Shown here piece by piece: positions 15,975 to 55,939 of a DNA stretch of 64,000 nucleotides; positions within the stretch are counted from its first letter, which is position 1; the number at the start of each line of letters is the position of its first letter. Where the stretch lies: assembly GCF_007995065.1 (NCBI RefSeq), contig NZ_VOQR01000001.1:3476501-3540500 (forward strand), in the 5' to 3' direction. Made by a program: the position numbers and the translations under genes. Source of the DNA: Sphingomonas ginsenosidivorax. GTDB taxonomy: Bacteria; Pseudomonadota; Alphaproteobacteria; Sphingomonadales; Sphingomonadaceae. Below the pieces are notes generated by a model. It saw only the letters and a list, made by a program, of their open reading frames with translations. It was not told the DNA's origin and searched no databases.

Positions 15975-16282
15975 AAGGGCAAGGCTCGCGAAAGGTCACG
16001 AACGTCGCACGCACGCACGAGGTTTCGCGGGCGGGAGGCTAGTGCGGGACCGGTGTTCGTCATGGTGGCGAAGGTGACACAGCATTAAGCGTGTAGGACA
16101 GGGGTTTCTGGCATGCGGCGCATAACCTGGGGCTAAGGCGGGGGGGGCGGAGAGCGCTGCCGATAGTCCCAAGCGTTCCGTCACCCCGGACTTGGTCCGG
16201 GGTCCATCGGTCCGCATATTCTAAGGCCGAGGGGTGCGCGGACGGATGGATGCCGGACCAAGTCCGGCATGACGGGGGGGAC
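15975..16282. other. Intergenic region with a palindromic element
   Basis: About 300 bases between the dipeptidase start and the end of the TonB-like gene on the same strand. The part 16178-16275 is a palindromic repeat described separately. The part next to 15975 should hold the dipeptidase promoter. I see no gene. Confidence 0.5.
16178..16275. repeat. CCGTCA-type palindromic element
   Basis: The left arm starts CCGTCACCCCGGACTTGGTC and the right arm ends with ACCAAGTCCGGCATGACGG. The two are imperfect reverse complements over about 30 bases, around a variable centre. It belongs to the same family as the elements at 18710, 33861 and 53861. It lies just past the 3' end of the TonB-like gene, where it could terminate transcription. 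Confidence 0.85.
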
Positions 16283-17053: not shown

Positions 17054-17116
17054 CGCCAGTATCTGGGTTTGCGGGGCGGGGAGGGCAAGCGCCCCAGCGT
17101 CTTCCCGCCCCTACCA

Positions 17117-17202
17117 CCGTCATCCCGGGCTTGACCCGGGATCCAGAGCCGCGAACGGTGTCGCCTGTTACCCTGGATCCCGGGACGAGCCCGGGATGAC
17201 GG
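17117..17202. repeat. CCGTCA-type palindromic element
   Basis: The left arm begins CCGTCATCCCGGGCTTGACC. The right arm ends GACGAGCCCGGGATGACGG. The arms are 30-base near-perfect reverse complements (three mismatches). The element lies between divergent genes, only fifteen bases before the GTG start of the beta-lactamase-fold gene, so a promoter for that gene must lie within or upstream of it. Confidence 0.9.
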
Positions 17203-17217
17203 TAGTTGGAGATCGAT

Positions 17218-23307: not shown

Positions 23308-23392
23308 CGTCATCCCGGGCTCGTCCCGGGATCCAGAGCCCCAAACGTCGCGCCGTGTAACCCTGGATCCCGGGACGAGCCCGGGATGACGG
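23308..23392. repeat. Perfect 29-bp inverted-repeat element
   Basis: Arms 23308-23336 and 23363-23391 are exact reverse complements, beginning CGTCATCCCGGGCTCGTCCC and ending GACGAGCCCGGGATGACG. The 26-base centre differs from that of the relatives at 17117 and 55856. Perfect pairing suggests recent arrival or strong selection. Confidence 0.95.
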
Positions 23393-25967: not shown

Positions 25968-26084
25968 CTCCCCCGCCAGGGGGAGGTGGCGCCGAAGGCG
26001 ACGGAGGGGGCGGGCGACGACCACGCCTCTTCCGTGTCCGCCCCTCCGTCACGCTACGCGTGCCACCTCCCCCTGGCGGGGGAG
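25968..26084. repeat. Palindromic element, CTCCCCC subtype
   Basis: Arms 25968-25990 and 26062-26084 are perfect 23-base reverse complements (CTCCCCCGCCAGGGGGAGGT...). The centre holds secondary pairings such as GACGGAGGGG with CCCCTCCGTC. It resembles the C-rich element inside leuS. Confidence 0.9.
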
Positions 26085-27292: not shown

Positions 27293-28440
27293 GCGACGCC
27301 CGGAGCGATGCGGCCTGGATCGGCGTCGCGCTGGCGCTGGCCGAGCGGACGCGCGGGGCGACCGCGCCCAATCCCAATGTCGGGTGCGTGATCGTGGCGG
27401 ACGGCCGCGTCGTCGGGCGCGGCTGGACGCAGGCAGGCGGGCGACCGCATGCCGAGGCGATGGCGCTGGCCGAAGCGGGCGACGCGGCGCGCGGGGCGAC
27501 GGCGTATGTGACGCTGGAGCCGTGTGCGCATCTGTCGGCGCGCGGGCCGGCCTGCTCGGACCTGCTGGTCGCGGCGGGGGTTACCCGAGTCGTTGCGGCA
27601 CTGCGCGATCCCGATCCGCGGACCGCGGGCGCGGGGTTCGCGCGGCTCGAGACGGCGGGGATCGCGGTCGAGACCGGCATGCGCGCGGACGCGGCGCGAC
27701 GGTCGATGGCGGGGTTCCTCGCGCGACGCCGGTTCGGCCGGCCGCAGGTGACGCTGAAGCTCGCCACCTCGCTCGACGGGTGCATCGCGATGGCCGACGG
27801 CACGAGCCGGTGGATCACCGGGCCGCAGGCGCGCGCGCATGCGCATCTCGAACGGAGCCGGCACGAGGCGATCCTGATCGGGCGCGGGACCTATGTGGCG
27901 GATGCGCCGCGGCTCGACGTGCGGCTGGCCGGGCTGGAGTCGCGTGCGCCGCGGCGGGTGATGCTGTCTGGCAGCTTGGCGCCCTCTGCCTCTCCCCTAG
28001 CCTCCGCACTCCGTCACCCCAGCGAAGGCTGGGGTCTCGCCGAGGGACAGGGTCGCTCTCCCCAACAGAAAGACCCCAGCCTTCGCTGGGGTGACGGAGA
28101 GGGGGAGGGTGACGGGCCGGGTGACGGGGCGGGGCGGCGGTCCGAAGCGGAAGGTGAAGGCTGGACCGTGATTGCGCGCCCCGCCGAGATCGCCACGCTC
28201 GACGGCGTCGACCACATCCTCGTCGAGGGCGGCGCACAGACCGCGGCGGCGTTCCTCGCCGCGGACCTGGTCGACCGGCTGCTGCTCTACCGCGCGCCGA
28301 TCCTGATCGGCGGCGGCCTGCCCGCGATCGGTGCGATCGGGATCGATCTTTCCGCCGCGCACGGGCGTTGGACGGCGATCGACGCGCGGCAACTTGGCAG
28401 TGATCGTCTCGAAGTCTACGAGCGCGCGAGGAGCGACTAA
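27289..28440 (+). CDS. ribD: Bifunctional riboflavin deaminase/reductase RibD with palindromic insertion
   Basis: Catalyses deamination and then reduction of the pyrimidine intermediate in riboflavin synthesis. The deaminase zinc site is complete: His54 in RPHAEAMA, Cys79 in EPCAH and Cys89 in GPACS. The reductase domain starts near [17 protein letters not shown] and ends normally ([24 protein letters not shown]). No ATG, GTG or TTG exists in frame between the stop at 27202 and Val34 (27388), which is already inside the deaminase. CTG 27289, overlapping the previous TGA, is the best start. Residues about 241-270 come from a palindromic repeat (28011-28097), flanked by low-complexity sequence. 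It is the first rib gene of the operon. Confidence 0.88.
28011..28097 (+). repeat. Palindromic element inserted in frame within ribD
   Basis: Arms 28011-28037 and 28071-28097 are perfect 27-base reverse complements (CCGTCACCCCAGCGAAGGCT... and ...TTCGCTGGGGTGACGG), with a 33-base centre. The ends match the intergenic CCGTCA/TGACGG family. It is read through as [10 protein letters not shown]...DPSLRWGD without a stop or frame change. Confidence 0.95.
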
Positions 28441-35800: not shown

Positions 35801-35910
35801 CCACCACCCCGGCGGAGGCCGGGGCCCAATTGGAAAGGTCCTCGTGATGGACGACCGGCCTTCGTCACGTCCGTTCCCCAATTGGGCCCCGGCCTGCGCC
35901 GGGGTGGTGG
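35801..35910. repeat. 33-bp inverted-repeat element, CCACCACCCCGG subtype
   Basis: Arms 35801-35833 (CCACCACCCCGGCGGAGGCC...) and 35878-35910 (...CTGCGCCGGGGTGGTGG) pair with one mismatch over 33 bases around a 44-base centre. It sits between the COQ9 gene and feoA. Confidence 0.93.
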
Positions 35911-49588: not shown

Positions 49589-52251
49589 GCGACGATGTTC
49601 ACGAGGCGGTCGGGCACGACGATGACCTTTCGGGGGGGCTTGCCGTCCAGCAGCTTGACGATCTTGTCCGACGCGAGTGCTGCGGCCTCGACCTCGTCCT
49701 TGGGCGCGCCCTTGGCGAAGACGAGCGTGTCGCGCAGCTTGCCGTTGACCTGGACCGCGATCGTCACCTCGTCGTCGACCAGCAGCGCAGGGTCGACATC
49801 GGGCCAGGCGGCGTCGGCGATCAGCCCGGTGTTGCCGGCGGCCGCCCAGGCTTCCTCGGCGACGTGAGGGACCATCGGGCTGGCGAGCCGCAGCAGCGTG
49901 GCGACCGCGGCGTCGCGGTCGGCGGAGGGCGCCGCCTTCTCGATCGCGCTGACGAAGCTGTAGAGCCGCGCGACGGCCTTGTTGAACTGCAGCGCCTCGA
50001 TATCGCCGGCGACGCCGTGCGTCGTGCGATGCGCGAGTTTGCGCAAGGGCAGGTCGTCGCCAGTGCCGGCGGCGCCGCCCTCTGTCTCGACCGCGCGCCA
50101 TAGCCGCTGGACGAAGCGCCAGGCGCCCTCGATCCCCGATTCGGACCAGGGCAGGTCGCGCTCGGGGGGCGAATCGGAGAGCACGAACCAGCGCACCGCA
50201 TCGGCGCCATACTGGTCGACGATCGGCTCGGGATCGACGGTGTTCTTCTTCGACTTCGACATCTTCGTCACGCGGCCGACCGTCACGGGGCCGCCGGTCG
50301 CGATCTCGATATAGCCTGCGTCAGTCTTGCGGACCTCTTCGGGCGACAGCCACTTGGTCTGCACCGGCGCGTCTTCGGACTCTTCGTCGTCGGTCTCGGT
50401 CTCCGGCTCCGCATCGCCGCGACTATAGGTCTCGTGCGTGACCATGCCCTGCGTGAACAGCCCGGCGAACGGCTCGGCGATGTCGAGCATCCCGATATGC
50501 TTCAGCGCGCGCGTCCAGAACCGTGCGTAGAGCAGGTGCAGGATCGCATGCTCGACGCCGCCGATATACTGGTTGACCGGCAGCCACTTCTCCGCGCCCG
50601 TGCGGTCGAACGGCTTGGCGTCCGGCTGGCTGGCGAAGCGGATGAAATACCAGGACGAATCGACGAAGGTGTCGAGCGTGTCGGTCTCGCGACGGGCATC
50701 TGCACCGCAAGTCGGGCAGGCGACGTGCTTCCATGTCGGATGGCGATCGAGCGGGTTGCCGGGGATGTCGAACGCCACGTCCTCGGGCAGCACGATCGGC
50801 AGCTGCTCGCGCGGCACCGGCACCGCGCCGCACGCGTCGCAGTGGATGATCGGGATCGGCGTGCCCCAGTAACGCTGGCGGCTGACGCCCCAGTCGCGCA
50901 GGCGGAACACGGTGGTGCCGGTGCCCCAGCCTTCGCCCTCGGCGCGTTCGATGACGGTGCGCTTGGCGTCCTCGATATCGAGCCCATCGAGGAAGTGCGA
51001 GTTCACGAGGCTGCCCGGGCCGGTCCAGGCGGTGTTGCCGACGAACACGGGTGCCTCGTCATCGCCTTCGCTGACGACGCGCTTGACCGGCAGGTCGTAT
51101 TTCCGCGCGAAATCGAGGTCGCGCTGGTCGTGCGCGGGCACGCCGAATACCGCGCCGGTGCCGTAGTCCATCAGCACGAAGTTGGCGATGTAGACGGGCA
51201 GCTGCCAGTTCGAATCGAGCGGATGCGTCGCGCGCAGCCCGGTGTCGAAGCCCAGCTTCTCCTGCGTGTCGAGCTCGGCCGCAGTGGTGCCGCCGCGCTT
51301 GCACAGCGCGATGAAGTCGGCCGCGTCGGGGTTCGTCGCGGCGATCGCCTGCGCGATCGGATGATCCGCGGCGACCGCGACGAAGCTCGACCCGAACATC
51401 GTGTCGGGGCGGGTGGTGAAGACCTCGACGCTGTCGATTCCCCTCCCGCTTGCGGGAAGGGCTAGGGGAGGGCGTGTCCCATCGGGGGTCGCGTCGGAGT
51501 CGACAGGCCCTCCCCCGACCCCTCCCGCGGGCGGGAGGGGAGAGGTAAGCGCGAACCTGAACTGCAGGCCCTGGCTGCGGCCGATCCAGTTCTCCTGCAT
51601 CAGCTTGACCTTGTCGGGCCAATGTTCGAGCGCGCCGAGCCCATCGACCAGCTCGTCGGCGAAGTCGGTGATCTTGAGAAACCACTGACTCAGCTTGCGC
51701 CGCTCGACCAGCGCGCCCGAGCGCCAGCCGCGACCGTCGATCACCTGCTCATTGGCGAGCACGGTCATGTCGACCGGATCCCAGTTGACCGCCGACTCCT
51801 TGCGATAGACCAGCCCCGCGGCGAACAGGTCGAGGAACAGCGCCTGTTCGTGGCCGTAATAGTCGGGCTCGCAGGTCGCGAGTTCGCGGCTCCAGTCGAG
51901 CGCGAAGCCCAGGCGCTTGAGCTGTGCCTTCATCGTCGCGATGTTGGCGCGCGTCCAGGTGCCCGGATGCACGCCCTTTTCCATTGCGGCGTTCTCGGCG
52001 GGCATGCCGAACGCGTCCCAGCCCATCGGATGCAGCACTTCCATGCCGTTCATCCGGCGGAAGCGCGCGAGCACGTCGCCCATCGTGTAGTTGCGGACGT
52101 GCCCCATATGGATGCGCCCCGACGGATAGGGGAACATCTCGAGCACGTAGCTGCGCGGTTTGGTGGACGAATCGTCGGCGGCGAAGGTCTGGGCGTCGTC
52201 CCAGACCTTCTGCCACGCCGCGTCCGCCTTCAGTGCGTTGAAACGCGACAT
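49585..52251 (-). CDS. leuS: Leucine-tRNA ligase with in-frame palindromic insertion
   Basis: An 888-residue class I synthetase charging tRNA-Leu. The HIGH motif is [16 protein letters not shown] and KMSKS is [15 protein letters not shown]. The CP1 editing domain is present ([20 protein letters not shown]), as is the zinc knuckle [20 protein letters not shown]. Residues about 238-271 ([20 protein letters not shown]...) are not part of LeuRS; they come from a palindromic element (51440-51540) inserted at the junction of the catalytic core and CP1. The reading frame continues undisturbed. It is the first gene of leuS-lptE-holA. Confidence 0.95.
51440..51540 (-). repeat. Palindromic element inserted in frame within leuS
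   Basis: Arms 51440-51473 and 51507-51540 are 34-base inverted repeats with six mismatches (CCCCTCCCGCTTGCGGGAAG... against ...CCCGCGGGCGGGAGGGG). The centre is 33 bases. It resembles the intergenic C-rich repeat at 25968 in composition and in its short stem-loop CTCCCGC-GCGGGA. Confidence 0.9.
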
Positions 52252-52382
52252 TGTTCAGTGAACTCCGTTCATGGTTTCAGCCTTGCTGAAACGCGGCGCC
52301 GGCCCGCTCGCCCACCCGGCCTCCCATCCAGGATAATCTGCAGGAGGCGGGGTAGGGGAGCGGGCCGGCGCCGCATCCGGCG

Positions 52383-55855: not shown

Positions 55856-55939
55856 CGTCATCCCGGGCCCGTCCCGGGATCCAGGGTCACGAATGCGGCG
55901 TTTTGTTACTCTGGATCCCGGGACAGGCCCGGGATGACG
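55856..55939. repeat. CGTCA-type palindromic element overlapping the ydcF-like 3' end
   Basis: Arms 55856-55884 (CGTCATCCCGGGCCCGTCCC...) and 55911-55939 (...GACAGGCCCGGGATGACG) pair with a single mismatch. The right arm codes, on the minus strand, for the C-terminal VIPGLSRDPE of the gene at 55906. Confidence 0.93.

Follow-up and report, generated by a model that had tools for sequence, protein, structure and literature searches.

Short dispersed palindromes are a familiar component of bacterial genomes. Repetitive extragenic palindromic (REP) doublets forming hairpins (REPINs), the partners of REP-associated tyrosine transposases (RAYTs), consist of a pair of hairpins in inverted orientation with a variable centre between them, and occur in tens of copies per genome. 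Closer to the present case, Rickettsia palindromic elements (RPEs) are inserted in-frame in genes (PMC10969869), and intragenic REPs have been described in many bacteria, among them E. litoralis and S. alaskensis, where tRNA synthetases are hosts (PMC3733652). The latter source also describes unlike REPs at about the same site in recB of two Xanthomonas, proposes loops and linkers as REP-tolerant sites, and presents the CGTC type as not associated with transposase genes (PMC3733652). Because RPEs and intragenic REPs have been described in these two sources, in-frame palindromes inside genes are an already known kind. Here we consider such an element in leuS, the gene for leucyl-tRNA synthetase (LeuRS), in a 64,000-nucleotide stretch of the Sphingomonas ginsenosidivorax genome ('the window'; contig NZ_VOQR01000001.1, positions 3,476,501 to 3,540,500). 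It belongs to a dispersed repeat family (family A), and what appears to be new is that several such families recurrently occupy fixed loops of essential enzymes across the genus. A literature search, judged from its listings and mostly outside subscription journals, found no report of many families repeatedly occupying the same loops of several essential enzymes across a genus, none of palindromic insertions at recurrent synthetase loops in Sphingomonas, and none of synonymous conservation of palindrome arms.

The in-frame palindromic insert in leuS (Table 1) is not due to chance. The leuS frame is uninterrupted along its whole length in the open reading frame (ORF) list of the window, its product is a complete LeuRS by NCBIfam leuS_bact (975.6 bits, cut-off 548.4), and the gene is single copy, with one full-length LeuRS match in its own genome; the remaining matches there are all short, and several coincide with other copies of the element or with valS or ileS. 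The insert lies after NWIGRS and before TTRPDT, at a site that is variable in other LeuRS too and that we place where the CP1 editing region begins on its N-terminal side (here and below, location in the fold was judged from sequence motifs and PDB sequence alignments). The first-pass annotation of this DNA, made by a model from the letters alone, had proposed an in-frame palindromic insertion at this place, and the intact frame and dispersed homologous copies bear it out; it had further described a 34-bp repeat coding for about 34 residues, of which the inverted repeat is real, while the arms are wider (40 nt each, 83% complementary, spacing 23 nt) and the residues number 35, 46% of them proline or glycine. 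The RNA strand of the insert has a predicted fold of -82.8 kcal/mol (z -6.57), a stability equalled by 0/200 shuffles, and the hairpin motif has four matches in the window, all inside the leuS element (0.24 expected; 0/100 shuffles reach four). By a strict ungapped inverted-repeat score the leuS copy alone reaches 14, which only ties the best of 500 shuffled inserts, so that much of the proof is carried by homology to other genomic copies.

These copies are as much as 85% identical to the leuS element along nearly its whole length. In the own-genome search, which returned 84 rows over both strands and in which the best 40 of 74 candidates were scored, making copy counts lower bounds, there are at least 46 family A matches in 35 fetched stretches plus the window, at least 38 of them of 90 bp or more, the leuS copy included. 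The consensus (TTCCCCTCCCGCTTGCGGGAGGGGCTAGGGG, without a GTAG or CGTC foot) runs in the order hairpin, CTAGGGGAGGGC, variable centre, complement of CTAGGGGAGGGC and second hairpin; that is, two terminal hairpins in inverted, head-to-head order surround a variable centre, a layout that we take to be the REPIN shape. Special coding capacity can be rejected for family A: 147/228 copy-frames are open, a fraction no different from shuffled copies (0.62) or random genomic stretches (0.66). Rfam returned 11 matches (10 microRNA models and one small nucleolar RNA), all far under gathering scores and disregarded. A row of full and partial family A units is clustered elsewhere in the same genome (L116, 1225-1520; contig C1 at ~3.6216 Mb).

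At least 10 family A copies are open and in frame within ORFs named by NCBIfam (9/38 full copies plus one 75-bp copy, in putA), the products being LeuRS, BchB, MetH, ValRS, IleRS, CarA, GlyRS beta, HrpB, DnaE and PutA, so that 4/10 hosts (leuS, bchB, metH, valS, ileS, carA, glyS, hrpB, dnaE and putA) encode tRNA synthetases. The left half of the element is read in two frames among these genes, a PLPLAGG-type frame in leuS, bchB, hrpB and putA and a PSRLREG-type frame in the remaining six; none of the ten in-frame copies uses the third, SPPACGRGWGRAC-like frame. Nine own-genome insert peptides contain 31-49% proline plus glycine and 82-91% disorder-promoting residues. Additional family A copies lie at gene borders, where one lengthens the C-terminus of an ORF right before the start of the next; from their protein sequences we presume the extended ORF to be MurB-like and the downstream one Ddl-like. 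Like RPEs as described (PMC10969869, PMC3733652), then, family A is a palindromic, dispersed repeat of the ~100-150 bp class, in frame within genes of known function in an alphaproteobacterial host; unlike them, it uses two reading frames, with no single conserved frame or peptide.

The first-pass annotation had suggested comparing LeuRS lengths at this junction across sphingomonads. Among 151 same-genus genomes including our own, 149 leuS loci were obtained and 148 junctions read (G019 and G088 yielded no locus, and L026 of G047 was left out for a frameshift, which falls in a G run next to a loop of normal length and is possibly a sequencing error). The loop measures 17-27 aa in 130/148 and 40 aa or more in 18/148, and 17 of these 18 long loops are palindromic, 16 by score and one (L017) by its fold and family D arms; the sole long loop without a palindrome (L263) has 40 aa. 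One 20-aa loop (L149, G114) is largely a single perfect hairpin (CTCCTCCCCGC/GCGGGGAGGAG) and may be a half unit or remnant. The leuS loop is occupied by B, C, D and G as well as by A, which also occurs there in another frame and with a second palindrome nested inside, the letters A-H being our own labels for eight families (Table 1). The nested case, found in L012 and L032 (same insert, probably one species), has a second palindrome of a different kind and stays in frame. Family A in L002-L006 has identical borders and looks inherited. Named LeuRS loci could be read in 77/80 cases; the nearest of them, from Sphingomonas sp. UV9, is 87% identical over its best segment (records of the window's own or a very near genome possibly being excluded), and the palindrome score was reached in two, L032 and L040, both Sphingomonas, while a Sphingomonadaceae metagenome-assembled genome (MAG; L046) has a palindromic-looking fold below that score. 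The first-pass annotation had named, as a finding that would refute it, the same segment made of unrelated DNA in distant alphaproteobacteria; 22 non-sphingomonad loci (21 named taxa and one unclassified MAG) have 18-23 aa at the junction, and the outcome not foreseen was that other Sphingomonas carry at this site a segment built from different palindromes. A second variable LeuRS region (about residues 606-640; 33/46 loci matching the pattern) was discarded as acidic or short protein unlike the element peptides.

Occupation is very frequent in ileS among close genomes. In a close set of 24 genomes (our own and 23 others) the ileS loop holds a palindromic insert in 22/23 readable cases, G017 having 15 aa instead, and 21 of the 22 inserts have inverted-repeat scores of at least 15 vs a best of 14 among 480 shuffles; the remaining one (L308, score 10) is an insert interrupted, in frame, by a different second palindrome. 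Six families (A, D, E, F, G and H) occur at this loop, and a D-like remnant adjoins A in L303. In PDB 8c9f the place of the IleRS insert is taken by a turn of three residues (415-417), with a matched stretch on either side. Genus-wide, a short-loop ileS query matched 148/151 genomes, unbroken in 48 and split in 100. Thirty of the 48 unbroken loops were read; they span 15-33 aa and contain no palindrome (the highest score is 11, which is the 99% level of both the leuS and the ileS shuffle sets). Among 20 of the 77 split loci beyond the close set, chosen by listing order and hence non-randomly, 19 are in frame and 15 palindromic (score of at least 13); L365, L366, L371 and L373 have long loops without a palindrome, and the 20th locus (L357), palindromic and out of frame, was left out of the counts. 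So was the ileS of G093, where two contigs (L316, L318) end within ~25 nt of the matched parts flanking the loop, as if its hairpin had broken the assembly.

All 24 close genomes could be assessed at valS, where 15 have full inserts, seven are empty, one is collapsed and one (G113) retains a half-element remnant; A and the A sub-type occur there, as do G, E or E-like elements, and D in opposite order, and the 14 scored inserts reach 15-33. In five relatives, glyS is occupied in 5/5 (A, A sub-type or B), metH in 4/5 (A, A sub-type or E; empty in G061) and carA in 4/5 (A or sub-type; short in G061), the dnaE loop is empty in 5/5, and one bchB (L390) has a 40-aa loop with score 11. More than one family or sub-type is thus found at one loop in six genes (leuS, ileS, valS, glyS, metH and carA), and the frame is preserved over inserts of unlike length in nearly all cases read. 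Because unlike families occur at the same loop of leuS, ileS and other enzymes, it seems that dispersed palindromes land again and again in a small number of protein loops, and here too the system differs from RPEs as described (PMC10969869, PMC3733652). The resemblance to GTAG/CGTC REPs (PMC3733652) lies in hairpins arranged as head-to-head dimers, some of them intragenic, and the difference in the feet, neither of which is present in the family A consensus or was seen in B, C, D, E or G; family H looks to be of the CGTC-REP type described there. The suggestion that such palindromes have a general ability to enter coding DNA is supported, with corrections: at least ten in-frame family A copies and the many further inserts in relatives bear out entry, the element is not specially adapted to coding, and what stands out is not free entry but the reoccupation of the same few loops by different families.

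Occupancy also varies over short phylogenetic distances. On a quick tree of 44 LeuRS sequences with the loop removed (13/39 inner branches starred), the best tree requires at least 16 changes among nine occupant states (possible minimum 8), as compared to a mean of 19.0 for shuffled states, 3/200 of which were as low as observed; starred branches alone still require three changes for A and three for B. Sister pairs with unlike states include L014/L015 (support 100), L016/L035 (100) and L013/L018 (99), and sisters of which one is empty and the other occupied are also present. The three families tested, A, B and E, are each repeated elsewhere in carrier genomes; for B and E the pool searches covered five genomes per family, with at most the best 40 candidates scored in each. 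Copies of family E are numerous in G034, G070 and G092, with no match in our own genome or G017; family B is common in G034, G070, G010 and G017, and among five matches in our own genome the one listed is partial. Our own genome has A at leuS, ileS, valS and glyS, while in G034 and G070 the leuS loop holds B and the loops of ileS and valS hold E. Within this small set of genomes, then, loop occupants agree with the repeats that each genome itself carries.

We think it probable that a dispersed family has landed repeatedly in a few tolerant loops of essential enzymes and left what are effectively neutral linkers. In this account, family A, a REPIN-like dispersed palindromic repeat, would have spread within the genome via some enzyme and landed in leuS; copies in coding DNA would survive only where the frame was kept and a tolerant surface loop was hit, and surviving copies would be translated, within a functional protein, as a Pro/Gly/Ser/Arg-rich and probably disordered linker. 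Tolerant loops in LeuRS, IleRS, ValRS, GlyRS beta, MetH and CarA would be struck repeatedly by the abundant families of a lineage, with loss or replacement of occupants between successive hits. The dN/dS of seven leuS A inserts, 0.82 vs 0.12 in the downstream flank, is consistent with such a linker, some of these being possibly separate insertions.

Several observations weigh against this account. The first concern mobility: a search for Y1 transposase (PF01797), the sole mover family searched, found none in the own genome (controls positive 5/14); 12-bp flanks of 38 family A copies, inspected by eye, show no obvious target-site duplication, no clean duplication is readable, and empty loops differ from occupied ones by more than the element. 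In layout and copy number family A is like a REPIN and in the lack of a Y1_Tnp gene in its own genome it is unlike one; because PF01797 is absent here and matched in only 16/151 genomes of the genus, we no longer consider a RAYT an obligatory mover. Compared to miniature inverted-repeat transposable elements (MITEs) as described in PMC10969869, it is likewise short, multi-copy and bounded by inverted repeats, with no coding capacity of its own, while target-site duplication and a partner transposase are not established for it. Two loci are out of frame, L357 (ileS of G088), which has a palindrome and is possibly an assembly error, and L278 (valS of G024), a single E hairpin with a frameshift that may stem from collapse in the draft assembly or from a true deletion. 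The general layout of GC-rich hairpins followed by G runs is shared by A, C, E and G, which may for that reason be distant relatives; A, B and D are clearly distinct. In L002-L006 the ratio of nonsynonymous to synonymous differences per site (pN/pS) reaches 0.28 for the arms and 0.43 for the centre vs 0.07 and 0.02 for the flanks, so the insert peptide may be under some constraint.

A further point concerns the synonymous differences (pS) of the arms. In ileS A they amount to 0.018 vs 0.228 in the flanks (0/547 flank windows as low), in ileS E to 0.016 vs 0.230 (0/545), in valS E to 0.025 vs 0.271 (6/516) and in glyS B to 0.024 vs 0.318 (0/503); leuS A is a weaker set, at 0.084 vs 0.171 (69/508). 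The windows overlap and each set comprises 3-7 sequences, so these counts are not formal probabilities; with slightly shifted arm limits the arm values become 0.084 for leuS A, 0.045 for ileS A, 0.016 for ileS E, 0.028 for valS E and 0.000 for glyS B. Synonymous conservation of the arms is not predicted by a purely neutral linker. Divergence so far below the flanks in 4/5 sets points to either constraint on the nucleic acid or conversion, and our preferred reading is that the nucleic acid, and not the peptide, has probably been kept constant, through function or through conversion, between which the data do not choose.

Function at the nucleic-acid level, in which interchangeable palindromes are retained as an mRNA hairpin (affecting translational pausing or transcript stability) or as a DNA cruciform, is an alternative that we consider rather unlikely, if the foremost of those available. 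It would account for the arm conservation, for the very stable fold of the leuS insert, for the strong inverted repeat kept by unlike families at one loop, and for the frequent occupation of ileS among close genomes. It does not sit easily with the short leuS loops that predominate across the genus or with the unbroken ileS loops, palindrome-free in the 30 read, nor with the occurrence of both empty and occupied sisters; moreover, conversion from other genomic copies would yield the same signature, and in-gene copies are only slightly nearer to the consensus (distance 0.061, n=9) than other copies (0.074, n=29). Somewhat less probable again is cassette exchange, whereby later palindromes overwrite residents and copies are homogenised, making the loops recombination hot spots and not repeated first targets. 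In its favour are the low synonymous divergence across whole elements in several sets, the nested palindromes of L012 and L308, the D-like remnant in L303 and the half-element in valS of G113; however, A, B and D have no visible homology through which conversion could act, and empty sisters indicate that first-time insertion or precise loss occurs too. Far less credible is a single ancient insertion diverged past recognition, to which the inherited-looking A of L002-L006 would conform and which is already contradicted by the dissimilarity of A, B and D in sequence and length, by sister species with unlike families, and by the repetition of A, B and E elsewhere in carrier genomes. That the segment goes untranslated (bypassed or removed), or that these ORFs are broken, is least probable of all, as only valS of G024 and ileS of G088 are out of frame, the frame is retained over varied insert lengths and leuS is single copy here.

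The window contains further palindromes. The element in the ORF labelled ribD (CGTCACCCC.../...GGGGTGACG) has a CGTC foot and a sequence unlike that of the leuS element, in agreement with the first-pass annotation, which had assigned the two to different types; it resembles the CGTC REPs of PMC3733652. Long palindromes also occur at 16178-16275, 17116-17203, 23308-23391, 35801-35910 and 55856-55939, 4/5 with CGTCA(T/C)CCCGG-type arms, as does an inverted repeat at 25968-26084 (CTCCCCCGCCAGGGGGAGGTGGC and its complement, spacing 71 nt). A GC-rich inverted repeat (GCGGCGCCGGCCCGCTC...) is situated at 52293-52374, directly upstream of the leuS start and before the next ORF.

Table 1. Features of the window (positions within the 64,000 nucleotides) and diagnostic sequences of the palindrome families
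Feature	Position	Strand	Sequence or basis
leuS, leucyl-tRNA synthetase, 888 aa	49585..52251	-	open reading frame and NCBIfam leuS_bact
Family A palindrome of 103 bp, in frame, coding for residues 237-271 of LeuRS	51439..51541	.	
Arm 1 of the element	51439..51478	+	terminal hairpin TCCCCTCCCGCTTGCGGGAAGGG + CTAGGGGAGGGCGTGTC
Centre between arms, weakly conserved among copies	51479..51501	.	
Arm 2 of the element	51502..51541	+	GACAGGCCCTCCCCCGA + terminal hairpin CCCCTCCCGCGGGCGGGAGGGGA
In-frame palindrome in ORF 27388-28440 (+), gene label ribD from the first-pass annotation	28009..28099	.	
Family A (leuS loop)			CCCCTCCCGC.GCGGGAGGGG
Family A sub-type (ileS)			contains CCGGGGGTGGG
Family B (leuS loop)			CTCCCCGG.ACGGGGAGGGGGACC
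Family C (leuS loop)			CCCTCCCTGGAAGGGAGGG
Family D (leuS loop)			TTCGACTTCGCTC...GAACGG type
Family E (ileS)			CCCTCTCCCC.GGGGAGAGGG
Family G (leuS loop)			CCCCTCCCCTTCAGGGGAGGGG
Family H (ileS)			GTCACCCC...GGGGTGAC

In-frame palindromes are best known from Rickettsia, with scattered intragenic REPs elsewhere. Sphingomonas appears to offer one genus as a parallel experiment, with eight families, six genes and dozens of species in which occupied and empty sisters both exist, and makes testable the entry of selfish repeats into essential genes, the tolerance of a loop to 35 residues, and the effect of a mid-gene hairpin on translation. The inserts amount to natural insertion-tolerance maps of synthetases. 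They are also a warning to annotators and assemblers, as contigs may end at palindromic loops, with ileS of G093 as an example, and the loops themselves may collapse, with valS of G024 as another. It is tempting to speculate, although we consider it rather unlikely, that these are 'docking loops', above all in tRNA synthetases, in which different palindromes are repeatedly installed, exchanged and held by selection on the hairpin in RNA or DNA as an interchangeable regulatory part. If that were so, selfish repeats would have been turned into an exchangeable regulatory part within coding sequence.
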